From: Paenibacillus apiarius
GTDB taxonomy: Bacteria; Bacillota; Bacilli; Paenibacillales; Paenibacillaceae
NCBI RefSeq assembly: GCF_017052585.1
Contig: NZ_JAFFHZ010000001.1
Span: 5,208,001-5,272,000, forward strand
Direction: 5' to 3'
Length of the DNA: 64,000 nucleotides
Shown: positions 16,469-31,905 of the stretch, piece by piece
Layout of the letters: each line of letters begins with the position of its first letter
How positions within the stretch are numbered: the first letter of the stretch is position 1
Notes under the pieces: generated by a model
What the model was told of the DNA's origin: nothing
Seen by the model: only the letters and a program-made list of their open reading frames with translations
Databases searched by the model: none
Position numbers and translations under genes: made by a program

Positions 16469-16601
16469 ACTCTAAGTCATGGTATAGAAAATAGGGAATC
16501 AAAAGGCAAGACAAAAATAAAAAGCCCTTGATATACAAGGACTTTGAGAATATAGGGGATAGAAGTGATAGAAGGGAAAGCATGTTATAATTTGAGATGT
16601 A

Positions 16602-17909
16602 TTGAAATTGTTAGAGGGAGACAAAAAATTTGAGGTTTTATCTAAGTTTGACTGTAACAAGCGTTGTATTGAAATATCGTCCATTGGGGAATTAATACAG
16701 CACTACAGGCGTGAAGCGGACTTCACATTATCACAACTATCAGAGTTGACGGGGGTACATAAGGGTACGATATCAAAAATCGAAAACGGTGACGTTAAAA
16801 GGCCGGAATATATGACAATCCGTCCACTTGCAGACACATTAAAAATACCGTTAGATACCTTGGTCGAACTACACATGAATGTTGACAAAAGGGCAGACAC
16901 CCTCCTATTTGTATTACAGGATGTGATTCAGCAGTCGGGTACTACTGATCTGGTACGAAAAGTAGGGACAAAATTTTTGGAGTCACCTAGTGATGATAGC
17001 CAGTCCTTGACTGAAGGGTTATATGCCTTCGTGGACAGTGTTGAAAATAAGGAAATTAGACTAGCCTTGTACGAACTAATCGTTGACTATTCTCGTGACC
17101 ACGGAATCATGCCATTTCTGGCAAAGGGGTTATACCAAGTTTACCTCATCGAACGAGACGACTTTACCAAGCTTAGGGCCGTTTACGACAGCGGCAAGCA
17201 TATCGTTCAGTACTCCAATTTTTTAACATGCGAAGACAGAATCGCATTATATTACAAATTGGCTATTCACGCATTCAATTTATTTCTTTACCAGCAAAGC
17301 ATTGAACTCTGCCTCCATGTACTTCAGAAAGCAGATGCAGACAATTGGTACCATATAAATGCGCTCGGCATATTGAGTGATTCTTATTTTTACAGCGAGG
17401 ACTACGAAAAGTCTGAATATTACTCACGCCTCTATACACAATATGATTACCCTCACATCAAGACCTATGCAGTGCTTATGGAAGCAGCGCTCAACGCGAA
17501 AAAAGGAAACTCCGATGTAGCTGTTGAACAGCTTACATCATTTCTGGAAACGTGCAACCAAGATGATGCTCTTCTTGCAATCAATCAGTTAATGCAATTA
17601 TATTTGCAGGAAAACCGGTTAAATGAAGCAGAACAATTGCTTGCATACCCAATATGTCCGCAATCTATCAGCACGAACAACCCCAACATCATCTCGCAGC
17701 TAGCCGAATATTATTTTCATCGAGCTGAATATTTCGTTGCAGTTGGCGACCTTCATAACGGTATATCCGATTTCTTGGAAAGCGCGTTACAGTTCTCAAG
17801 AATTAATGATACGGATCAGGAAAAAGAATGCATTAACCAAATCGTGCGCAGCCATCTGCAACAAAACACTGTGATGAGCGTATCCACATTAGATAAACTG
17901 AATAAGTAG
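16602..17909 (+). CDS. XRE-HTH/TPR regulator, probable peptide-sensing (RNPP-like) receptor
   Basis: 435 residues. An N-terminal XRE helix-turn-helix (about 28-91, with FTLSQLSELTGVHKGTISKI) is followed by a long all-helical tail of about 330 residues with TPR-like repeats (for example NALGILSDSYFYSEDYEKSE). HTH plus TPR is the layout of RNPP receptors (PlcR, NprR, AimR and the AloR family in Paenibacillus). The next gene is a 36-residue secreted-type propeptide, which is the usual partner arrangement. The start is uncertain: only TTG codons (16602, 16608) lie upstream of the HTH, and a TATAAT at 16586-16591 would give a nearly leaderless message. GAGGGAG at 16614-16620 has no in-frame start after it. 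It probably regulates its own operon and other genes in response to the processed peptide. Confidence 0.85.
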   Translation: MKLLEGDKKFEVLSKFDCNKRCIEISSIGELIQHYRREADFTLSQLSELTGVHKGTISKIENGDVKRPEYMTIRPLADTLKIPLDTLVELHMNVDKRADTLLFVLQDVIQQSGTTDLVRKVGTKFLESPSDDSQSLTEGLYAFVDSVENKEIRLALYELIVDYSRDHGIMPFLAKGLYQVYLIERDDFTKLRAVYDSGKHIVQYSNFLTCEDRIALYYKLAIHAFNLFLYQQSIELCLHVLQKADADNWYHINALGILSDSYFYSEDYEKSEYYSRLYTQYDYPHIKTYAVLMEAALNAKKGNSDVAVEQLTSFLETCNQDDALLAINQLMQLYLQENRLNEAEQLLAYPICPQSISTNNPNIISQLAEYYFHRAEYFVAVGDLHNGISDFLESALQFSRINDTDQEKECINQIVRSHLQQNTVMSVSTLDKLNK

Positions 17910-17953
17910 TATGAACGCAGCGCAGCTAAAGATGATAAACTGGAGAGATTCAT

Positions 17954-18064
17954 GTGAAGCGTTTAATGGCAAAGCTATACAGCAGTCTCCTTTGCTCTGT
18001 AATCATCGGGGTAACTACGATTGTGGCGGCAATGGGAAATAATAATGGCCATCATCCGTGGTAA
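17954..18064 (+). CDS. Short secreted propeptide, candidate quorum-sensing signal
   Basis: A 36-residue product starting at GTG 17954, six bases after GGAGAG. It has a basic N-terminus (KRLMAK), a hydrophobic core (SLLCSVIIGVTTIVAA) and a short polar tail ending NNNGHHPW. This is the classic Phr/AimP/AloP-like plan, in which the peptide is exported by Sec, trimmed, and the last 5-8 residues are re-imported to bind the cytosolic TPR receptor. It lies 44 bp after the HTH-TPR gene and directly before a strong terminator, so the two form one transcript. The predicted active peptide is within the last eight residues. Confidence 0.75.
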   Translation: MKRLMAKLYSSLLCSVIIGVTTIVAAMGNNNGHHPW

Positions 18065-18090
18065 GAGTACCTATATGGTACTCTTTTTTT
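18064..18090 (+). terminator. Terminator of the receptor-propeptide unit
   Basis: AGAGTACC (18064-18071) pairs perfectly with GGTACTCT (18077-18084) around TATAT, followed by six T. The stem begins at the last base of the propeptide stop codon. Confidence 0.9.
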
Positions 18091-18158
18091 GTTCCCTTCG
18101 TTTCCTGAAATACTATTTATTGGGATTTGTACGACTCATAGTATAATAATTGTAAAGA

Positions 18159-18353
18159 GTGGGTGCCCACCATTTAAGCTGTTATAAAATACGAAAGGGT
18201 GTTCCAACAATAGAACCATTTTATTTTTGCTACGAAAAACATGATTATTTAATTGAAAGAATCGAAAGTATCCGATACCAATTAATAAAAACAGCAAAAG
18301 AAAAAAGAGCTTTACAGACGAAAGTGTTACGCAGCACTGCTAAATTATTATAA
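18159..18353 (+). CDS. Possible small helical protein, Spo0E-like but lacking the signature
   Basis: A 64-codon frame (GTG 18159) ends in a helical segment ESIRYQLIKTAKEKRALQTK that resembles the two-helix plan of Spo0E aspartyl-phosphate phosphatases. The family signature SQxLD is absent (the matching place reads STAKL) and the frame stops early. No good ribosome site precedes the GTG. It may be a decayed Spo0E-type gene or not a gene. Confidence 0.3.
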   Translation: MGAHHLSCYKIRKGVPTIEPFYFCYEKHDYLIERIESIRYQLIKTAKEKRALQTKVLRSTAKLL

Positions 18354-20111: not shown

Positions 20112-21833
20112 ATGAAAAAAAAGATTGCTTTTATTTTTATTCTAGCAGTTTTTTTGGTATCTAGCGTCAACGCTTATGACTCGGAGTACAGTTATGATGA
20201 GAATGGAAACGTAAAGAATATCACGAATGATGATACGGATATCACGTATCAGGCAGATAAGAATGGCAATATGACAAGTAGAAGTGTGAGCAAGAAGGTA
20301 TACGAAAAGATGACAAACGGTGATTTTAAAAACGTAAACAATGCCGGCAAGGCGATTGGCTGGTCCTATGTGACGGATAGTGAAGCGGTATCCAGTTATG
20401 GCATTCAAAAGATTGGATCGAGAAATCATCAGCAAATTCAAGCTTCTAATATGCCTATTGGAAGTTCGATTGGCATTCAGCAAACGATTTCTATTTCTCC
20501 AGATTCAAATAAATACCTACGAGGTATGAAAAGTTCTTTGAAGATTGAACATCTGCAGAATGCGGAGGCAATAATGGCGCTCGATTTTGTGGATGACAAT
20601 GGCAAGGTTATCGAAAGAGTTGCCAAAAAAAGCACGTTAACGAGCAATTTTTTTTATACAATAAGTAAGAGATTGGGTAATGCTCCCTATAATGCAAAAA
20701 AAGCAGTCATTCAATTAGTGATTCACGCAACGGGAAGCAATGCCGCCGGCGCGATAACAATTAGGGGTGTTGATGTTGCTTATGATTACGATCCTTTCTT
20801 TAATCTACTCATGAACTCTGATTTCCAAGGGGAGGGAATCTCAACGATAGGAGGTACAATCTCAGATTACTGGGATGACGCCGACAACTCCTATTCTTCT
20901 AGGTTCTCTATCAAAGGGGATAAAGGCGGTAAAAGAAGCCAGGTTGTAGGCCGCCATCATGACAGCGGAAGCAAAGAAATATATATAAGCCAAAATATAC
21001 TGCTGGATGATACAAGAAAATATCAGATAAGAGGGATATCCCACCGAGTAGGAGACGCGAAATCGCATTTACGCATTTTGTTTTTTAATCAGCATGGTAC
21101 TTTAATGGGAACCAATTATACTTCATCCGATAGTCTTACTAATATGACCGATTCAATAAGAGGAAGCATTCCAAAGGGTACTGTTTATGCAACCATTTTT
21201 GTGGGGGCACGCTTTGATAGTGATCGTGGTTTCGGAAATGTTCATATTGATGGTGTCACGTTTGAGTATAGTATTGAGCCACAGGCATTATGGAACTCGT
21301 TCTTTACCATATTTGATAAGAATAGCGATATAGCACAAGGCTGGGAAAAAATAATTAGGCGTAATATTAAGGAAGTGGGGATTTATGGGGAGGGCGATAG
21401 AGTTAGAGGGCAAAAAATTACTGTACCGCTGGGACAATGGGGGAAAGATAGTTCGGCAGGAATTTTGCAAAAAATCACAGGATTTGATGATACTTTTTCA
21501 AGCAAATTCTCATTAAGAGGCGAAATCTCTATCCAAAGCAGTAAAAATGCTAAATTGGAAGTTAAAGTTGAACTATTTCGAAAAAAAATTAATATGCGCG
21601 TACCCACACACACCGAAACTTACATGTTAACTCCAGAAAACCATGGGCAGGTTGTTAGTACAGAGGGAGAAATACCGCCGGGCATAGCCGAGGCATGGAT
21701 CTCCGCACGCCTAGTCCCGATAAATCCTGACGAGCCGTGGGAAGCAAGTGTAGTGGTTCATGATTTACGCTTTAATCCTTTCTACAACCCTTCAGGGCCG
21801 GTAGAAATGTTCCTGCCGGAAGGGATGGAATGA
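20112..21833 (+). CDS. Secreted protein with a YD-repeat and three carbohydrate-binding-like domains
   Basis: 573 residues. A signal peptide (1-21, FIFILAVFLVSSVNA) is followed by a short YD/RHS-like stretch (YSYDENGNVKNI, about 26-60). Three beta-sandwich domains follow at about 68-225, 230-400 and 410-565, each opening with an N/F-x-D/N pattern and WSY/W-aromatic features (NGDFKNV, MNSDFQGEG, WNSFFTIF). This looks like CBM-type jelly rolls. It directly precedes the Rhs toxin gene, so it may be an accessory or the separated N-terminal part of an Rhs system that helps surface or target binding. RBS GGTGGGG lies before ATG 20112. Confidence 0.65.
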   Translation: MKKKIAFIFILAVFLVSSVNAYDSEYSYDENGNVKNITNDDTDITYQADKNGNMTSRSVSKKVYEKMTNGDFKNVNNAGKAIGWSYVTDSEAVSSYGIQKIGSRNHQQIQASNMPIGSSIGIQQTISISPDSNKYLRGMKSSLKIEHLQNAEAIMALDFVDDNGKVIERVAKKSTLTSNFFYTISKRLGNAPYNAKKAVIQLVIHATGSNAAGAITIRGVDVAYDYDPFFNLLMNSDFQGEGISTIGGTISDYWDDADNSYSSRFSIKGDKGGKRSQVVGRHHDSGSKEIYISQNILLDDTRKYQIRGISHRVGDAKSHLRILFFNQHGTLMGTNYTSSDSLTNMTDSIRGSIPKGTVYATIFVGARFDSDRGFGNVHIDGVTFEYSIEPQALWNSFFTIFDKNSDIAQGWEKIIRRNIKEVGIYGEGDRVRGQKITVPLGQWGKDSSAGILQKITGFDDTFSSKFSLRGEISIQSSKNAKLEVKVELFRKKINMRVPTHTETYMLTPENHGQVVSTEGEIPPGIAEAWISARLVPINPDEPWEASVVVHDLRFNPFYNPSGPVEMFLPEGME

Positions 21834-21997
21834 AACGAGTGACATAAACTTTTAAAACGAGTACTCCGCAGGCCTCTGCTTTTAACATTTTAGCTGCTCA
21901 ATTATCTGAATGGTAAGCGGTCTCTTGACGAAAACGACGGTCTTTATGCCAAATGCAAAATAATAAGAGTAAGGAAAGATAATTGATAGGGGAGATC

Positions 21998-24900
21998 ATG
22001 TTGAGAAGATGGTTATCACTAATTCTCGTATGTGTATTATTGATTACAAGCGTGCCTCTCGCGTCTGCACAAGAAGCTTTTGCACTTGAAAATTCAGACA
22101 TAGAGAAGTATCCGACAGTAACTTCCAGTGTGTATGCTCCGCAAGCAACCTTTGCAGATTTTGACCCAGACGAGCTGATTACCGTCACGTCCCTTACCGA
22201 GACATTCGGCGTGACAAGGGATTGGGTGCAGGAGGAGCTGCTCAAAGGCTATGAACTCCATCAAATCTATCAAGGCCTGCAAGCTCAGCGGCAGGGCAAA
22301 GACTACGAAGAGTTCATGAACCATACCTATCCGAAGCCTTCACCAGATCCCCTTATAGCTCATCAGGAACAAGTGAAGAGTGTATCGGAGGCTGTATATC
22401 AAGCTAGTGTAACGGAGCAAGTATACGGCAAGAAGGAACGGTCCGTAACGGATCTGGTGTACGGATTGCGGATGTTCTCCGGCAGCGAGCCTTATGATGA
22501 AATCGCCCTGCGCAATAAGCCGATTCGGATGGATCAAGCTCCTTACTCCGTTGGGTCTGTGAACGATCATATTTCAACCGTAGATGGATCGCTGCGCGTG
22601 GAAGAAACGGATCTGGTCATGCCGGGCCCGAACGGCTTGGACTTTGCGCTGCGGAGAATTTATGACAGCTCTTTGGCGAAGGACGATATTTATGTGGACA
22701 GATGGAATGGGAAGAACAGTACGCAGGAAACACAAGAGGAACAAATATTCCATCTCGGCAAAGGGTGGATCTGGGATATTTCGTATATTAAGAAGGTCAA
22801 CAACAACCGCTATATCTACATTTCGGGCCTTGGCGCCTACAGCTTATCCGAAAATGACCGGCTGCTCGGATATCCATTCCGCGATTTGGACTTTAGTGAT
22901 ACGGACAAGTACCTGCAGACAGGAGATAGAGCCTCCTATGAACTCCATAATCTGAAGACGGGAATCACGCAGTATTTTAACCATGCCGGCAAACTGATAT
23001 TAATTGAAGATAAATACGGCAATTGGATTCAATTTTCGTATAAGTACGAACCGGATGTTGGAGAAGTTCTATATCGGATCCAAAGCTCGGCCAGGGATCA
23101 CCGGTACACGAACGCAATGTATATTTCCTATCATAGAGACCATACAATTTCCATTGAAATCGGGGATCGGAAGGTCACCTATAAGAAAAAGAGAGTCAGT
23201 AAAATAAAGAATGATGTGCTCTCCCGGGAGCAAGATATTTTAACGGAAGTCATCGATCCGCTTGGGCGTTCGACCAAATATGATTACGGCGTGTGGAACT
23301 GGCTGAATTTTAATCTGGTTGATTCCTACAAATATCTGACTGGCAATGATCGCAACATTTTCTGGGGAAAGAACGAGACCATCGCGCTGGGGGTAATTGA
23401 ACACCCAACCAAGGCCATTACGGAATATGGATTCGATAGTGTCATTTACCGGAAGATCGGGGAGTATGCAGAAGAGCAGGTTATAAGGTACAAAGCACGT
23501 CGTAACTACTATAGCTCACAGCAAAATACGAAGAAGAATGAGCTGATATTGAGATATAACAATGGGGATGTAGGGCAGTATTTCGATCAAAACTTCACGT
23601 TTTCTGTAGAGGTGTACGACAAATTTAAGACCGTAATCTATACGTATGACAAACAGTATACGGATTACCTCTCTCCTTCGGTCGTATATAACACGAGGAA
23701 GGCTATTGCAGACCAGCAAACAAACAATAGTCAGGTGTTTACGTACAGGTACGATACAGCTCGGAGAAATCCGAACCCGATCCGCATCGAGGAGACGAAT
23801 TATCAAGGAGGGGCTTCATCTGCTACCCGTGTTACAACACGGACGTATGATCGCAATGACTGGGGCTTTATTGAATCCGAGACGAATCCGCTCGGGGCAA
23901 CAAGCCGTTACGAGTACGCCATCGTGTCGCTGAGGAAGTTCGGCTTGATGAACAGTGTCCTGCCGATAGATCGGGACAAGAACCTGCGCTCCGAGTATGA
24001 ATATGATGAGGATCGCGGAGGATTAATGCAGGCGATCTCCAAGAATAACAAGGGAGAGATTGTTCAGCAGCTAAATTATGAGTATGACTATGCCGGCAAT
24101 CCGCTCAAGATTCGAATCAAGGGAGATACTTCCGAGACCGTTGTTTATCAGCAATTCAGCCCTGATTTCAAGCGATTCTTTTTAAGCGGGCAAATCGTAG
24201 GCGTTAAGAACGTTGACGGCAGCAATGAAGTGGTCGAAAGCAGTATGGACTATATTCCCGAGACAGGGCTTCCGACGAAATTTACAGACGGCAATGGAAA
24301 CAGCACTTCCTATACGTATGACAAGCTGGGGCGAATTACGGCCGAAATCAATCCGGATGGAACGAAGACAACAATCGTTTATGATGATCAAGCAAATAAG
24401 ATGTTCATCACCGATCCGAATGGGCTGCGAATCGAGAAGCATTTCGATCCGCTCGGCAATCTGATCGCCGAAACCAACGGGCGTGGTATTGCCGAACATG
24501 CGTATGATGAGAACGGTCGGATCATTCGCAAAGGGAACTTTAACGGATCCGGATTTCAATATGAGTACGATGCCTGGGATCGAGTTATCAAGGAAAACTT
24601 CCTTCATGGTATGAACCGCATCGTTTATGACGATGCAGCCAATACGAAGACAACTATCGATGGGGCTAACAACGCGAGTCGTGAAACATACGACATCATG
24701 AATCGGGTTATAAAGAAAGAGGAAATCAAGCCGTCTGGTCAGGCGGTGGTATTGGCCCGTTACGAATACGACTATGCAGGTAACGTCAAGGTTGCGTATG
24801 ACGGGAACAACAACGCAACGAAATATGAGCACGATGTATTGGGACACGTGATCGCCGTAACGGATGCCGAAGGGAAAACGACGCGCTACCGGTATAATAT

Positions 24901-27355
24901 GGCTGGAAATGTGATCGAAGTCAAATATGCGGACGGAAATACGGTGCAGAAGCGGTATGACGATATCGGCCGTCTGCTGGAGCAAACCGATCCGAAGAAG
25001 CAGAGCAAACGTTTCTATTATGACGGCAACGGTAACTTGATTAAGAGTATCGATCGGAAAGGTCAGGTTCAACAGTACGTATATAACAACTGGAATTTCC
25101 TTATAACCAGCATCGCACCGGACGAGACGATTTCCTACAGCTATGACGCAGCAGGAAACCGTACGGCCATGACCGATCAGACGGGAACGACAAATTATGC
25201 GTACTATCCATCAGGAGAACTAGCATCCATCACCTATCCGGATCAAACGCGTATTGGTTACGATTATGAGATTCGCGGGCTGCGCACGGAACAAGCAGTA
25301 GCGGTTGGCGGCAATCGGATCGTTCAGCAGACGGGATATCATGCAGTTCTGCCAAATCCAACGAGTCTGAGCGTCTTGGATGGCAGCGGTACGCAGTTAT
25401 CGCAATTCGAGTATAAATATGACGGATCATACAAACGCTTGGCCGAGTTGAAATCTGCGCAAGGCTGGAATGAAGCCTATACGTACGACGGCTTCAACTT
25501 GTCCGGCATCCAACAGACTCAGAACAATGCACCTTCCGCACAATATACGTACCAGTATGACAATAACCGTAATATCGTAGCGAAAACTGACAACGGAGCA
25601 GCCTTCCAATTCAGCTACGATCCATTGAACCGGATTAAGACTTCAAGTCAGTTCAATGAAGCCTATACCTACGATTTGCGGGACAACCGCAGCACCCTGT
25701 ACAGCGATCATGCGCTGGACATCAAGGGAGCAACCTACACATACGATAGCCGCAATCGTTTGACTCAAGTAACGACAGAGGATGGCAAGGTGGTTAGCTA
25801 CCGCTATAATGGGGATAACCTTATGGTTGAACGAACCGAGGGTGGCACAACAACCCGTTATTACTATGACGACCGAGCGAAGATTGTAGCCGAAGGCAAG
25901 GTAGAAGCGATCGGCAGCGTCACCATTACGGCAGCGCATATCCATGATCTGAACGGCAAGCTGTTGGCCCGTCAGGTTCCGGGGCAGAACGCCTTGCAAT
26001 ACTACGTATCCAACGGACACGGCGACATTACGGAGATTCGGGATGCCCAAGGAAACGTACTGAACCGCTACACGTACGACATCTGGGGTAATCCATTAAC
26101 CCAGGAGGAGCAAGTTCCGAATATCTTCCGCTACTCGGGAGAGTACTGGGACGCAGATACGAATCTGCAATATTTGCGCGCAAGATGGTATGATCCAAGT
26201 ATCGGGCGATTTATTAATGAGGATACGTATGAAGGGGATCTAGGGAATCCACTGAGCTTGAATTTGTATACGTACGTGGCCAACAATCCGTTGAAGTTTA
26301 TTGACCCTAGCGGGAACCGATATATACCTTCAGAAATGAAGCTCATAATAGAAGCGGCAATGAAAATAAACTCGACGAATGATGAACGGTACTTGAAAGC
26401 CCATTCATTAATAGGCGCCCAGTTTGAGGCGGTGTACAATGAAAGTGACAATAATACGTTTAATTACTTGTTTGGATTGCTTACACAAACAAGCAGCTAT
26501 TCGAACAGTGCAGGAAATGCAGACTGGGCAAGAGGACAGTTAATAGAGGCATATAATAAATGGCATCAGGAAATATCCTTTGCTGAATCCTTGGCCATGG
26601 GGGCTGCAGCTTTGCGTGTTGAACGCGGGGGAGCGAAGGGACAGGCCCGCGGATGTAACTGTTTTACTGCTGGAACCAAGGTTCAAACAGACGAAGGGGA
26701 TAAACCTATCGAAGACATTGAGGTCGGAGATATGGTTCTTGCCAAAGACGATGAGACAGGCGAGATGGCTTACAAGGAAGTGGAATGGCTCTTCCAACGG
26801 GACGTTGAAGAAACGTATAATATTACTGTTGGCAGCGAGGACATAACGACAACCGATGAGCATCCATTCTGGCTTGTCGGTAAAGGTTGGGTGGAAGCAC
26901 AGTACCTAGCGGTGGGCGATGTTCTGACAACCTCGGATGGCAAGGAATTAGCCATTGCGAAGATTGAGGTTAAGAAGGAACATGCTACAGTTTATAATTT
27001 CAAGGTGAAGGACTTCCATACGTATTTTGTCTCGAACCTTGGGATTTGGACTCATAATGCCTGTTTGAGTGTTTCTGGGAAAAAAGGATGGACATTACAT
27101 CATGGTTCTGTGGATGACTTTACAAAGAAAAATGGTTATACCATTGGAAGCCCGAAAGATACTTTTGATATGAAGAAGAGTATTGTTTATAACAAAAATG
27201 GAAAGGCAATCGGCGAGATTCATTATGGCCAGCCCCAATACGTTGGGAATAATACTAAAAACGCTCAAACTGGTAACTATTTCCCTGATCATTTTCAAAA
27301 GTATAAGCCCGGAACAACCGAACTCATGAATGAGCACATTTATTTTAAGTATTAA
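21998..27355 (+). CDS. Secreted Rhs polymorphic toxin with HINT domain and C-terminal toxin
   Basis: About 1785 residues. A Sec signal (LSLILVCVLLITSVPLASA) is followed by a long RHS/YD-repeat shell (many YxYDxxGN units, about 380-1380). The RHS core ends near 1400-1430 (RARWYDPSIGRFINEDTYEG, DPSGNRY). A linker follows, then a pretoxin HINT domain that starts at Cys1555 (CFTAGTKVQTDEG) and ends HNAC (Asn1687). The toxin tip is the last ~96 residues (GEIHYGQPQYVG and NYFPDHFQKYKPGTTELM). In Rhs proteins the shell encases the toxin and autoproteolysis frees it. The tip family is not known to me. A short gene follows at once and is the likely immunity partner. ATG 21998 is chosen; TTG 22001 fits GGGGAG spacing slightly better. 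Confidence 0.9.
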   Translation: MLRRWLSLILVCVLLITSVPLASAQEAFALENSDIEKYPTVTSSVYAPQATFADFDPDELITVTSLTETFGVTRDWVQEELLKGYELHQIYQGLQAQRQGKDYEEFMNHTYPKPSPDPLIAHQEQVKSVSEAVYQASVTEQVYGKKERSVTDLVYGLRMFSGSEPYDEIALRNKPIRMDQAPYSVGSVNDHISTVDGSLRVEETDLVMPGPNGLDFALRRIYDSSLAKDDIYVDRWNGKNSTQETQEEQIFHLGKGWIWDISYIKKVNNNRYIYISGLGAYSLSENDRLLGYPFRDLDFSDTDKYLQTGDRASYELHNLKTGITQYFNHAGKLILIEDKYGNWIQFSYKYEPDVGEVLYRIQSSARDHRYTNAMYISYHRDHTISIEIGDRKVTYKKKRVSKIKNDVLSREQDILTEVIDPLGRSTKYDYGVWNWLNFNLVDSYKYLTGNDRNIFWGKNETIALGVIEHPTKAITEYGFDSVIYRKIGEYAEEQVIRYKARRNYYSSQQNTKKNELILRYNNGDVGQYFDQNFTFSVEVYDKFKTVIYTYDKQYTDYLSPSVVYNTRKAIADQQTNNSQVFTYRYDTARRNPNPIRIEETNYQGGASSATRVTTRTYDRNDWGFIESETNPLGATSRYEYAIVSLRKFGLMNSVLPIDRDKNLRSEYEYDEDRGGLMQAISKNNKGEIVQQLNYEYDYAGNPLKIRIKGDTSETVVYQQFSPDFKRFFLSGQIVGVKNVDGSNEVVESSMDYIPETGLPTKFTDGNGNSTSYTYDKLGRITAEINPDGTKTTIVYDDQANKMFITDPNGLRIEKHFDPLGNLIAETNGRGIAEHAYDENGRIIRKGNFNGSGFQYEYDAWDRVIKENFLHGMNRIVYDDAANTKTTIDGANNASRETYDIMNRVIKKEEIKPSGQAVVLARYEYDYAGNVKVAYDGNNNATKYEHDVLGHVIAVTDAEGKTTRYRYNMAGNVIEVKYADGNTVQKRYDDIGRLLEQTDPKKQSKRFYYDGNGNLIKSIDRKGQVQQYVYNNWNFLITSIAPDETISYSYDAAGNRTAMTDQTGTTNYAYYPSGELASITYPDQTRIGYDYEIRGLRTEQAVAVGGNRIVQQTGYHAVLPNPTSLSVLDGSGTQLSQFEYKYDGSYKRLAELKSAQGWNEAYTYDGFNLSGIQQTQNNAPSAQYTYQYDNNRNIVAKTDNGAAFQFSYDPLNRIKTSSQFNEAYTYDLRDNRSTLYSDHALDIKGATYTYDSRNRLTQVTTEDGKVVSYRYNGDNLMVERTEGGTTTRYYYDDRAKIVAEGKVEAIGSVTITAAHIHDLNGKLLARQVPGQNALQYYVSNGHGDITEIRDAQGNVLNRYTYDIWGNPLTQEEQVPNIFRYSGEYWDADTNLQYLRARWYDPSIGRFINEDTYEGDLGNPLSLNLYTYVANNPLKFIDPSGNRYIPSEMKLIIEAAMKINSTNDERYLKAHSLIGAQFEAVYNESDNNTFNYLFGLLTQTSSYSNSAGNADWARGQLIEAYNKWHQEISFAESLAMGAAALRVERGGAKGQARGCNCFTAGTKVQTDEGDKPIEDIEVGDMVLAKDDETGEMAYKEVEWLFQRDVEETYNITVGSEDITTTDEHPFWLVGKGWVEAQYLAVGDVLTTSDGKELAIAKIEVKKEHATVYNFKVKDFHTYFVSNLGIWTHNACLSVSGKKGWTLHHGSVDDFTKKNGYTIGSPKDTFDMKKSIVYNKNGKAIGEIHYGQPQYVGNNTKNAQTGNYFPDHFQKYKPGTTELMNEHIYFKY

Positions 27356-28169: not shown

Positions 28170-29456
28170 TTGACTATGTTGAAAGCTGCTCAAGCCTGGA
28201 ATGAAGCTCAAGAGGAGCAAGCCCCGAGCATTTTCCGCTACTCGGGAGAGTACTGGGACGCGGCAACGAATTTACAATATTTGCGCGCAAGATGGTATGA
28301 TCCAAGTATCGGGCGATTTATTAATGAGGATACGTATGAAGGGGATCTAGGGAATCCACTGAGCTTGAATTTGTATACGTACGTGGCCAACACTCCGTTG
28401 AAGTTTATTGACCCTAGCGGGAACCGATATATACCTTCAGAAATGAAGCTCATAATAGAAGCGGCAATGAAAATAAACTCGACGAATGATGAACGGTACT
28501 TGAAAGCCCATTCATTAATAGGCGCCCAGTTTGAGGCGGTGTACAATGAAAGTGACAATAATACGTTTAATTACTTGTTTGGATTGCTTACCCAAACAAG
28601 CAGCTATTCGAACAGTGCAGGAAATGCAGACTGGGCAAGAGGACAGTTAATAGAGGCATATAATAAATGGCATCAGGAAATATCCTTTGCTGAATCCTTG
28701 GCTATGGGGGCTGCCGCTTTGCGTGTTGAACGCGGGGGAGCGAAGGGACAGGCCCGATCGGTTGGAGGATGTAACTGTTTTACTGCTGGAACCAAGGTTC
28801 AAACAGACGAAGGGGAGAAACCTATCGAGGAAATTGAGGTAGGAGATAAAGTCCTAGCCAAAGACGATGAAACAAGCGAAATGGCATACAAGGAAGTGGA
28901 ATGGCTCTTCCAACGTGATGTTGAGGAAACGTATAATATTACTGTTGGCAGCGAAGTCATAACGACTACTGATGAGCATCCATTCTGGATTGTCGGCAAA
29001 GGTTGGGTGGAAGCACAGTACCTAGCGGTCGGCGATGTTCTGACGACTTCAGATGGCCAAGAATTAGCCATTGCGAAGATTGAGGTTAAGAAGGAACATG
29101 CTACAGTTTATAATTTCAAGGTGAAGGACTTCCATACGTATTTTGTCTCGAACCTTGGGATTTGGACTCATAATGCCTGTGGTGTTAATAAATGGGGTAA
29201 CCAAAAGACGTTACAAGACCATTTTGATAGGCATGGTGCTGATTTTGGTGCAAAGACCCCTGATGAATATGCTAAGAAGGCAAATAACTTCTTTAATAAC
29301 AGACGTAAGTACCAGATTAAAACTGATACTGATGGAACAATCAGAGTGTATGATTCGAACACCAATACATACGGTTCATACAATGCTGACGGTACAACCA
29401 AAACTTATTATAAGCCAACATCGCCAACTTATTGGAGCAGGCAACCAGGGAAGTGA
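28170..29456 (+). CDS. Orphan Rhs C-terminal cassette: core end, HINT domain, RNase-like toxin tip
   Basis: 428 codons almost identical to the end of the full rhs gene from the core (RYSGEYWDA) to the HINT end (HNAC near 29169-29180), then a different 91-residue tip. The shell is missing and no ribosome site precedes TTG 28170 or ATG 28176, so the module is probably silent until recombined onto the full gene. The tip has an H-rich start (LQDHFDRHGADFGAKTPDEY), an Arg-rich middle (NNFFNNRRKYQIKT) and a TYYKPTSPTYWS end. This pattern resembles small BECR-fold RNase toxins of CDI/Rhs systems; that is an inference. A TCGGTTGGA insertion before the HINT cysteine separates this copy from the full gene. 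Confidence 0.8.
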   Translation: MTMLKAAQAWNEAQEEQAPSIFRYSGEYWDAATNLQYLRARWYDPSIGRFINEDTYEGDLGNPLSLNLYTYVANTPLKFIDPSGNRYIPSEMKLIIEAAMKINSTNDERYLKAHSLIGAQFEAVYNESDNNTFNYLFGLLTQTSSYSNSAGNADWARGQLIEAYNKWHQEISFAESLAMGAAALRVERGGAKGQARSVGGCNCFTAGTKVQTDEGEKPIEEIEVGDKVLAKDDETSEMAYKEVEWLFQRDVEETYNITVGSEVITTTDEHPFWIVGKGWVEAQYLAVGDVLTTSDGQELAIAKIEVKKEHATVYNFKVKDFHTYFVSNLGIWTHNACGVNKWGNQKTLQDHFDRHGADFGAKTPDEYAKKANNFFNNRRKYQIKTDTDGTIRVYDSNTNTYGSYNADGTTKTYYKPTSPTYWSRQPGK

Positions 29457-29463
29457 GGTAAAT

Positions 29464-29721
29464 ATGAAGAATCGATGTTTTGTATGCATTTATGACGGAC
29501 TTTATGAACCTCCGTATGATGATAGAGGAGTCTCCTCTGACGAAATATGTCCATGTTGTGGATTTCATTACGGTTACGATGACGATGACGTAATTGATAA
29601 AGAGTTTGTTTACAAAGAATGGAGAGAAAAGTGGATTAGTAATGGTTGTATATGGTTCTCAAAAGGACGAAAACATCCTAAAGATTGGAATCCTACCGAG
29701 CAATTGAAAGGACTTAAATGA
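29464..29721 (+). CDS. Probable immunity protein with CxxC/CPCC zinc-site cysteines
   Basis: 85 residues from ATG 29464, seven bases after the orphan tip stop, with GTGAGG upstream. It holds CFVC and ICPCCGF cysteine pairs (likely Zn binding), an acidic patch (YDDDDVIDKEF) and W-rich helices (WREKWISNGCIWF). Small CPCC proteins are common next to polymorphic toxin tips, so a neutraliser of the preceding RNase-like tip is likely. It would have to be expressed for self-protection if the tip is ever used. A terminator follows. Confidence 0.7.
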   Translation: MKNRCFVCIYDGLYEPPYDDRGVSSDEICPCCGFHYGYDDDDVIDKEFVYKEWREKWISNGCIWFSKGRKHPKDWNPTEQLKGLK

Positions 29722-29729
29722 TTAATATC

Positions 29730-29764
29730 AACCTTGAGGGAATATTCCTTCAAGGTTTTCTTTT
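29730..29764 (+). terminator. Terminator after the second immunity gene
   Basis: AACCTTGA (29730-29737) pairs with TCAAGGTT (29750-29757), extended by GGAA/TTCC, then a T-rich tail. Confidence 0.8.
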
Positions 29765-29766
29765 CC

Positions 29767-29833
29767 CACCCAGTGCCGAATGAATTTGGCGGCTTTGTCA
29801 AAGATAACTTAACCCTCATCAGCCCCATATGAG
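29767..29833 (+). repeat. Linker repeat, unit 2
   Basis: 67-bp diverged copy of 27901-27967, again directly after an immunity gene terminator and before an rhs tip module. See unit 1. Confidence 0.6.
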
Positions 29834-29892
29834 TTTTTCCTAATTCGGATGTACGCACATTATTTGTTTCAAGTGTTGAATATTTTACCCCA

Positions 29893-30498
29893 CCTGGTCA
29901 GATGGTATGATCCAAGTATCGGGCGGTTCATTAATGAGGATACGTATGAAGGGGGATCTAGGGAATCCACTGAGCTTGAATTTGTATACGTACGTGGCCA
30001 ACAATCCGTTGAAGTTTATTGACCCTAGCGGGAACCGGTATATACCTTCAGAAATGAAGCTCATAATAGAAGCGGCTATGAAAATAAACTCGACGAATGA
30101 TGAACGGTACTTGAAAGCCCATTCATTAATAGGCGCCCAGTTTGAGGCGGTGTACAATGAGAGTGATCATAACAGGTTTAATTACTTGTTTGGATTGCTT
30201 ACCCAAACAAGCAGCTATTCGAACAGTGCAGGAAATGCAGACTGGGCAAGAGGACAGTTAATAGAGGCATATAATAAATGGCATCAGGAAATATCCTTTG
30301 CTGAATCCTTGGCTATGGGGGCTGCAGCTTTGCGTGTTGAACGCGGGGGAGCGAAGGGACAGGCCCGATCGGTTGGAGGATGTAACTGTTTTACTGCTGG
30401 AACCAAGGTTCAAACAGACGAAGGGGAGAAACCTGTCGAGGAAATCGAGGTAGGTGACAAACTCCTAGCCAAAGACGATGAGACAAGCGAAATGGCAT
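29893..30498 (+). pseudogene. Third Rhs cassette, frameshifted and cut off by an IS element
   Basis: The sequence restarts within the rhs core (RWYDPSIGRF) and runs into the HINT domain, near-identical to the orphan cassette. An extra G in GAAGGGGGATC near 29950 shifts the frame, and the match stops inside the HINT domain at ATGGCAT (30498), where the IS3-family element begins. The tip and immunity gene are lost. It shares the TCGGTTGGA insertion with cassette two, so those two are closest relatives. Confidence 0.8.
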
Positions 30499-30572
30499 GG
30501 TGCTAGACTCAATATTGGACACGGAGAACCGAGAATGCGAAAATAAAATCATTCTTAATCGAGGTGTCCGAC

Positions 30573-30907: not shown

Positions 30908-31724
30908 ATGTGCACCGTATTTGGAATCTCCCGAAGCGGTTATTATGATTGGACTCGGCGAAAAGAAAGCAAGCGTAGCAAACGCCATGAGTGGCTGAAA
31001 AAGAAAATTCGCCGCATTTTTCTTGACAACAGGCGTCTTTACGGGAGCAGGAAAGTCTGGGAAACCCTAAAGAAGCAAGGGATAGAGGTAACCGAGAAAA
31101 CTGTTGCTCGTATCATGAAGGAACTGGACCTTAAATCTCGTACGGTCAAGAAATATAAAGCGACAACGAATTCCAAACATAACTTGCCGGTCGCCGCAAA
31201 TGTGCTGAACCAACAGTTTCAAGCGAGTGCGCCTAACCAGATCTGGATGACAGACATCACTTACATCCCAACCGATGTGGGGTGGCTTTATTTAGCCAGT
31301 GTCATGGACTTATACAGCCGTAAAATCGTAGGATTTCATATGGATGAACGAATGACCAAGTCACTTGTGATCAAGGCGCTAGATCAAGCCTACCGAGTTC
31401 AAAAGCCACGCGGCGAAGTCCTCCATCACTCTGATCGCGGAAGCCAGTATGCTTCTCAGGAGTACCAGGAGCGGCTTAAAACGTATAAGATGAAAGGCAA
31501 CATGAGCCGTAAAGGGAATTGCTATGATAACGCTTGTATCGAGTCGTTCCAAAGTGTACTGAAGAAAGAACTCGTTTATTTAGAGAAGTTCAAGACCCGC
31601 AAAGATGCTAAGGCTCGGATTTTTGAGTACATTGCTTGCTTCTACAATGGGAAACGAATCCCATTCCTCAATTGGGTATTTTACACCCAATCAATACGAA
31701 TGTATCTACCGTTCAGCTGCGTAA
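30908..31724 (+). pseudogene. IS3-family transposase OrfB (DDE), frameshifted near its end
   Basis: An integrase-core protein with the three acidic residues in context: WMTDITY, HSDRGSQY and NCYDNACIESF. It is normally made by -1 frameshifting from orfA (the first in-frame ATG is 30908). After FYNGKRI an extra C in the CCC at about 31660-31662 moves the frame. Without it the protein would end HSSIGYFTPNQYECIYRSAA with a stop at 31722-31724. With it the frame runs on to 31813 as unrelated sequence. The catalytic residues are before the shift, so activity may be reduced, not lost. Confidence 0.8.
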
Positions 31725-31905
31725 ATCTCTCGATTCTTTGTGTCCAATCTATTGACAGTAGTCCAATAATCCTTCGTTCTATCAATCTTTTCCTCTTTGT
31801 CATATTGGCGTAACATAGCCAATTTATGATGGCTTTGTAAGCACCCATGTACAAAGCGCATGCTTTCGCAGCGATCCTGCTCGCTAAGCATTTAGGAGGA
31901 ACACC

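Follow-up and report, generated by a model that had tools for sequence, protein, structure and literature searches.

A probably decaying receptor-propeptide locus of Paenibacillus apiarius and its Spo0E-linked family

Introduction

Does a receptor gene followed by a short gene for a peptide with export features, in the genome of Paenibacillus apiarius, form a working signalling pair, and what would such a pair control? The two genes lie in a 64,000-nucleotide stretch of the genome (GCF_017052585.1, contig NZ_JAFFHZ010000001.1, positions 5,208,001 to 5,272,000, forward strand), the whole of which is called the window here. An earlier note, made from the letters of the sequence, had described a new peptide-signalling pair of the RRNPP kind with an unusual tail, likened it to AloR-AloP among others, and suggested that it might belong to a phage or island decision system. 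Comparison with related loci makes it likely that the window carries a receptor-propeptide-terminator-spo0E quorum-sensing module of subfamily 08, the working copies of which would tune phosphorylated Spo0A (Spo0A~P), and that this particular copy has recently begun to decay.

Gene Content of the Locus

The features of the locus are as follows (window coordinates).

16583..16591, + strand: extended -10-like TGnTATAAT, read by eye, tentative and not in the promoter scan output
16602..17909, + strand: receptor open reading frame (ORF), 435 codons with a doubtful TTG start; XRE helix-turn-helix (HTH), then 18 helices; apparently of subfamily 08/cluster 8 type
16656..16682, + strand: region of the orthologs' Shine-Dalgarno sequence and ATG/GTG start, from alignment with seven orthologous loci; 8-nt gap here
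17907..17951, + strand: premature receptor stop, then in-frame C-terminal remnant, from the ortholog alignment
17954..18064, + strand: propeptide gene, GTG start, 36 codons; basic start, hydrophobic core, tail NNNGHHPW; conserved in orthologs
18038..18061, + strand: codons of the NNNGHHPW tail
18063..18085, + strand: intrinsic-terminator-like hairpin, nine pairs and a T tract, directly 3' of the propeptide; recurs in aligned orthologs
18120..18147, + strand: promoter-like TTGGGA-16-TATAAT, 3' of the terminator and 5' of the Spo0E remnant; the surrounding block resembles that of the orthologs
18156..18353, + strand: frameshifted remnant of a Spo0E-like phosphatase gene, from alignment with a P. 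profundus gene

The receptor and propeptide ORFs (the export features of the latter judged by a hydropathy rule) are as the earlier note described them, and the pair itself was confirmed; the note overlooked the premature receptor stop and the frameshifted Spo0E-like gene, and the TTG start is doubtful. Between 16300 and 18900, three terminator-like sites were found against 1.5 ± 1.4 in shuffled sequences, while the scan returned seven promoter-like sites against 8.0 expected by chance, that is, no excess; the site at 18120..18147 is a candidate for a receptor-controlled promoter. The pairing of receptor and propeptide is more than chance.

Receptor Fold

The Pfam profiles HTH_3 and HTH_31 match the window receptor above their cut-offs, the HTH occupying roughly residues 28-94. 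As a single protein it gives a weak Pfam signal for tetratricopeptide repeats (TPR); a profile built from 11 relatives brings this part out more clearly, matching designed consensus TPR proteins. The AlphaFold2 model combines the HTH with a TPR-like superhelix: five helices in the HTH region are followed by 18 more, i.e., nine helix pairs, with residues 1-22 at a predicted local distance difference test score (pLDDT) below 50. On this model, with an N-terminal HTH and a C-terminal TPR peptide-receptor fold, the protein is placed in the RRNPP(A) superfamily. An RRNPP-type arrangement, as first proposed, is therefore right in kind: sequence and fold support a receptor-propeptide pair in which peptide binding is predicted.

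Among solved structures the best match after VIA realignment is NprR, with general TPR proteins scoring close behind; NprR shares 7% identity with the window receptor in the structural alignment (root-mean-square deviation 6.2), and the NprX peptide differs. In a Foldseek search the top rows were general TPR proteins and PlcR stood at rank 35. AimR-AimP (arbitrium) likewise couples an HTH-TPR receptor to a propeptide, but controls phage lysogeny, and its structural matches ranked lower, mostly at high deviation. A sequence search of the PDB with the relatives' profile returned HTH domains along with TPR proteins, designed ones among them, and the likeness to NprR, Rap, PlcR and AimR is structural only.

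Family Size and Assignment

The pair is not new in the sense first claimed: the P. apiarius genome has 12 such paralogs, this one included, and the subfamily to which it probably belongs has already been predicted in print. The other 11 full receptors are 33-52% identical to that of the window, and 11 of the 12 sit on the 5.97-Mb contig. At E 1e-30, 17 of the 19 genomes searched in the genus have relatives, at 175 places in all; others are on seven plasmid records and on the Brevibacillus phages Sundance and SecTim467. Named close orthologs come from P. profundus and, with two loci, from Paenibacillus sp. 2.1. About 140 of the 175 places, together with the plasmid and phage records, yielded 150 distinct receptor ORFs, 133 of which were kept as full length and 17, partial or broken, left out; two HTH-only matches (L013, L014) and the primer loci (L046-L055) had been dropped before counting.

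Membership of the AloR family was considered and rejected. AloR13-type reference proteins were recovered via a published P. polymyxa cloning primer, and two of them have a propeptide ending in SHGRGG, the AloP13 signal. Their significant match to the window receptor covers the HTH only (24% over about 55 residues, E 0.001), and therefore falls short of the 30% identity over 80% by which Bernard et al. delimit receptor families (PMC10075063). The AloR-AloP systems, especially Alo13 of P. polymyxa, share with the present family the order receptor, propeptide, spo0E, many paralogs per genome and the bacterial family (PMC7425212); given homology over the HTH at best and a different signal, the likeness is one of analogy. 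The P. apiarius genome also holds an AloR-type receptor (L199:1501-2754, 38% to an AloR13-type protein), so both receptor families of the Paenibacillaceae coexist there.

A better home is offered by a plasmid of B. laterosporus LMG 15441, which carries one AloR-AloP system and one system of the novel cluster 8 (Bernard et al. 2023, PMC10075063). One protein encoded by pBRLA33 of this strain shares 45% identity with AloR13 along its length; another is a full-length homolog of the window receptor (30% across 94% of the query, E 7e-64). Because the published plasmid holds one of each and the other pair is AloR, we infer by elimination that the window family is RRNPP_detector candidate cluster 8, or subfamily 08. 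In Moi et al. 2025 (PMC12700828), subfamily 08 of the Paenibacillaceae, which bears the same number, is a sister group of AloR with nine TPRs, in whose tails a DPG motif, also present in AimR peptides, is widespread. The window receptor has an HTH and, in its model, nine helix pairs that may correspond to the nine TPRs; the window family agrees with subfamily 08 in its spread over chromosomes, plasmids and phages, in the DPG tails of some relatives, and in that its full-length members were found in Paenibacillus and Brevibacillus records and phages, hence in Paenibacillaceae. It differs in that tails in the genus mostly contain Trp, often as PW, with the published DPG motif rare, and in that the window copy is damaged. 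Within the parts of the cited literature consulted, no experimental work on subfamily 08 was found, its description being based on sequence and modelled structure.

Propeptides and Their Tails

Among the 133 full-length receptors, 103 have a called propeptide. Ribosome site, hydropathy and position made up the calling rule, in which Trp played no part; nevertheless, 99 of the 103 carry Trp within the last ten residues, 50 as the final residue, and 68 have PW within the last twelve. By comparison, Trp makes up 0.17% of receptor residues and 0.48% of propeptide residues outside the tail. The four called tails without Trp are DYDPGY, TDNPGY, SVHPF and VVHFP. DPG occurs in three of the 103 tails and [DN]PG in four, the window tail being without it, and further DPG tails are present in relatives from plasmids, phages and viral contigs. 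The rule misses some propeptides, as in L058 and L060, where DPG tails were seen by eye, and L005, which has a possible propeptide with too low a score. In L005 a paralog lies in a 478-amino-acid (aa) reverse-strand frame with an extended C-terminus; this may be another decaying copy, because a PPWIIPT tail is readable in another frame.

Sixteen other receptors are at least 60% identical to that of the window. For eight a propeptide was called, in each case starting with GTG and ending in PW; five are fusions to Spo0E (see below), and three (L015, L025, L039) have no called propeptide. At the expected propeptide place in L015 of Paenibacillus sp. 2.1, where none was called, a transposase-like gene was recognized by eye (L015:4454-5470). 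The tails of the eight orthologs (63-79% identity) read GHHPW (L018, L019, L023), GIHPW (L017, L059), VIPW, GIFPW and GIMPW; a ninth pair outside this set (L198) has an ATG start and again ends in PW. Against all seven aligned orthologs, the window propeptide has diverged less at non-synonymous than at synonymous sites. The unusual tail singled out by the earlier note is thus real and its form is conserved beside related receptors, but it is no one-off: it is one spelling within a family-wide Trp-containing code. Processing of the propeptide would probably leave its last 5-8 residues as the mature signal.

Association with Spo0E and Proposed Mechanism

What the pair would control is suggested by its recurring neighbor. 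The Spo0E profile PF09388 matches at 11 places in the P. apiarius genome, nine of which are linked to receptors: seven follow one of the 12 at a distance of up to about 1 kb, and two are parts of receptor fusions. The remaining two lie elsewhere. In the 133-receptor set, a separate Spo0E-like frame follows within 900 bp downstream in 76 cases and an in-frame fusion exists in seven, with neither form in 50. Two phage-borne receptors of the family, in Sundance (L057) and SecTim467 (L058), adjoin an annotated Spo0E gene, and SecTim467 additionally has an AloR-type receptor (38%).

In the Alo13 system, AloR activates the promoter of the adjacent spo0E and the peptide shuts that promoter off, with effects of the peptide on distant genes as well (Voichek et al. 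2020, PMC7425212). By analogy, the role of the family is likely to be density control of Spo0A~P through Spo0E, and the dozen or so related pairs of P. apiarius would probably set the timing of spore formation. The anatomy, family, tails, Spo0E association and lesions of the module were read from sequence; how the peptide is exported, processed, imported and bound, how and in which direction the promoter is controlled, and how sporulation is affected are modelled on Alo13 and other RRNPP systems. Thus the propeptide would be exported by Sec, cut down extracellularly to its last 5-8 residues (...HHPW in this case) and re-imported by an oligopeptide permease, and the peptide would bind the TPR groove of the receptor. 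The receptor would then alter transcription of the adjoining spo0E-like gene, by activation or repression, and the product of that gene would set Spo0A~P and hence sporulation timing. In the window strain this chain would be interrupted, the receptor appearing to lack its ancestral start and C-terminal tail and spo0E being frameshifted, while the propeptide is intact.

Probable Decay of the Window Copy

Alignment with seven orthologous loci revealed several lesions. An 8-nt alignment gap removes the start codon, conservation does not extend to the ribosome site, and beyond about 60 bases upstream the alignment with the orthologs breaks down. Since the stretch with the orthologs' ATG/GTG is missing here, and residues 1-22 are poorly modeled (see above), the ancestral protein probably did not begin at the TTG at 16602. 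The orthologs extend 9-16 codons past the window receptor stop, and this remnant is still readable in frame; the overlap of receptor stop and propeptide start, found in five of the seven, has been lost. The Spo0E-like remnant is 74% identical to the P. profundus gene over 65 residues and is then frameshifted; its homologous N-terminal part remains, the SQxLD motif of PF09388 has been lost, and the 64-aa frame at 18159-18350 gave no Pfam match. Taken together, the lost start, early receptor stop and frameshifted spo0E suggest that this copy is probably in decay, with its propeptide intact. Weighing against decay, pairwise comparisons of the receptor with six orthologs gave ratios of non-synonymous to synonymous substitution rates (dN/dS) of 0.11-0.18, the seventh comparison being saturated. 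These values do not exceed those found between orthologs, so the damage would be recent or the protein still made.

This constraint, in a frame open for more than 400 codons, would also fit a pair that is fully functional, the receptor starting at the upstream TTG or another codon and acting in trans on other promoters, with the local spo0E dispensable. L018 and L019 also lack the stop/start overlap yet keep an intact spo0E, and the reach of the Alo13 peptide to distant genes offers a precedent (PMC7425212). However, no conserved ribosome site precedes the TTG, the first 22 residues have the low pLDDT already mentioned, and the upstream DNA diverges from that of the orthologs beyond about 60 bases, making full function unlikely, if still the foremost of the alternatives to decay. 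It is more doubtful again that the strain merely emits an HHPW pheromone, heard by related species, without answering itself. An intact propeptide beside a damaged receptor and spo0E would be expected in that case, and the GHHPW tail does occur in three other genomes (L018, L019, L023), but a small intact ORF near decayed genes may simply have escaped mutation so far.

Surrounding Genes and Mobility

The window neighbors of the pair are a P-type ATPase and a chitinase-like protein (both by eye) and RHS genes. Of seven ortholog loci compared with the window by BLAST of ORFs, six (L193, L194, L196, L197, L198, L015) share only the receptor with it, and the seventh, L195, also shares RHS genes. 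Because its neighbors differ from those of most ortholog loci, the window locus must have moved or been rearranged. Such a neighborhood, and the relatives on Sundance, SecTim467 and seven plasmid records, would suit the phage or island decision system proposed by the earlier note. Nonetheless, that idea is highly improbable for the window copy: relatives are present in 17 of 19 genus genomes, all but one of the 12 P. apiarius copies lie on the 5.97-Mb contig, and no phage genes were recognized by eye among the neighbors or elsewhere in the window ORF list. Least probable of all is that the small ORF encodes a membrane-active toxin or bacteriocin-like peptide regulated by the HTH-TPR protein, for although peptides of this size can be toxins and its product is short, hydrophobic and Sec-like, what recurs in it is a short tail with Trp at the C-terminus, the receptor has a fold like that of peptide receptors and the recurring genomic partner is Spo0E.

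Starting 2.2 kb downstream of the pair, a YD-type-repeat gene (by eye) is followed by one for a large RHS-type protein (window 20112-27355) with RHS repeats and a pretoxin-HINT domain. Similar YD-repeat and large RHS-type genes were seen by eye directly downstream of the fused receptor L011 (L204:10109-15686); a quorum-linked RHS locus is possible, as is coincidence. Behind the main RHS gene are two partial RHS C-terminal modules (28170-30506, by eye), the first resembling RHS frames of L195, and just past the array is a transposase-like frame (30908-31813, by eye).

Receptor-Spo0E Fusions

In some family members the receptor and the Spo0E domain form one protein, including two in the P. apiarius genome.

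L004:1390-2694: fused receptor with a C-terminal Spo0E domain in frame
L011:1483-2808: fused receptor with a C-terminal Spo0E domain in frame

Scanning the 19 genomes of the genus with PF09388 gave 171 matches; among the matches listed, ten lie in frames of at least 440 aa, all of them family receptors. The genus thus has at least ten intact fusions (L004, L011, L024, L035, L036, L066, L067, two in L202, and L203). C-terminal scores are over the cut-off in L004 (31.3 bits), L011 (43.0) and L035 of a sister genome (41.6), as well as in the two L202 fusions and the one in L203, and the S-Q-x-L-D residues are kept in all eight aligned fusions. For the HTH, TPR and Spo0E parts of five related fusions, the ratio of non-synonymous to synonymous polymorphism (pN/pS) was 0.08-0.30 in 27 of 30 comparisons, the other three (0.40-0.49) being based on few changes. 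At least four Spo0E matches in frames of 324-383 aa look like broken fusions, two of them, among the matches listed, in L194 and L206. Loss of the HTH in fused receptors is not claimed: some look worn, yet two of three scanned pass the Pfam cut-off, with L203 just below it.

None of the seven fusions in the 133-receptor set has a called propeptide of its own. Six of the ten listed, in five loci (L193, L194, L198, L202 with two, and L203), are preceded by an intact receptor-propeptide-spo0E module that points the same way; in L203 the fused receptor is about 1 kb behind the module, and in L202 both stand behind one module. The two P. apiarius fusions stand alone. A single clade for all ten was rejected (p-AU 5e-9, approximately unbiased test), with six label changes on the tree. 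Because the rows of a group have their junction sequence in common and recombination is likely, we claim three junction types and not six separate events: L004; L011/L202/L203; and L024/L035/L036/L066/L067. Rows with the same junction may stem from one fusion followed by recombination.

A tentative scenario, somewhat short of probable, is that in this genus the peptide receptor has more than once become joined to the enzyme domain it would control, a duplicated module having lost the propeptide gene and intergenic DNA. The products would be HTH-TPR-Spo0E proteins acting as pheromone-gated Spo0A~P phosphatases, Rap-like by convergence and hearing the peptide of the neighboring pair. Rap proteins are not known to carry an HTH and act on Spo0F or response regulators; the fusions differ from Rap-Phr in having a separate Spo0E domain. 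Reports of such fusions were not found in a literature search for which subscription papers were mostly out of reach; the word 'fusion' is absent from the main text of PMC7425212 and 'fused' from that of PMC10075063.

Significance

Subfamily 08 gains a testable output in Spo0E, and hence in sporulation timing, and the genus a rule for its signals, namely Trp among the last residues, often as Pro-Trp. The intact HHPW receptors of sister genomes provide a ready comparison for the damaged receptor of the window. Independent evidence of a joint role for receptor and phosphatase comes from the fusions; if the scenario of repeated joining is true, they would mean that evolution has reached a Rap-like phosphatase under peptide control by a second path. 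The interest therefore lies in the family: its Trp-based code, the tying of nine of the 11 Spo0E domains of the P. apiarius genome to receptors, and the receptor-phosphatase fusions.
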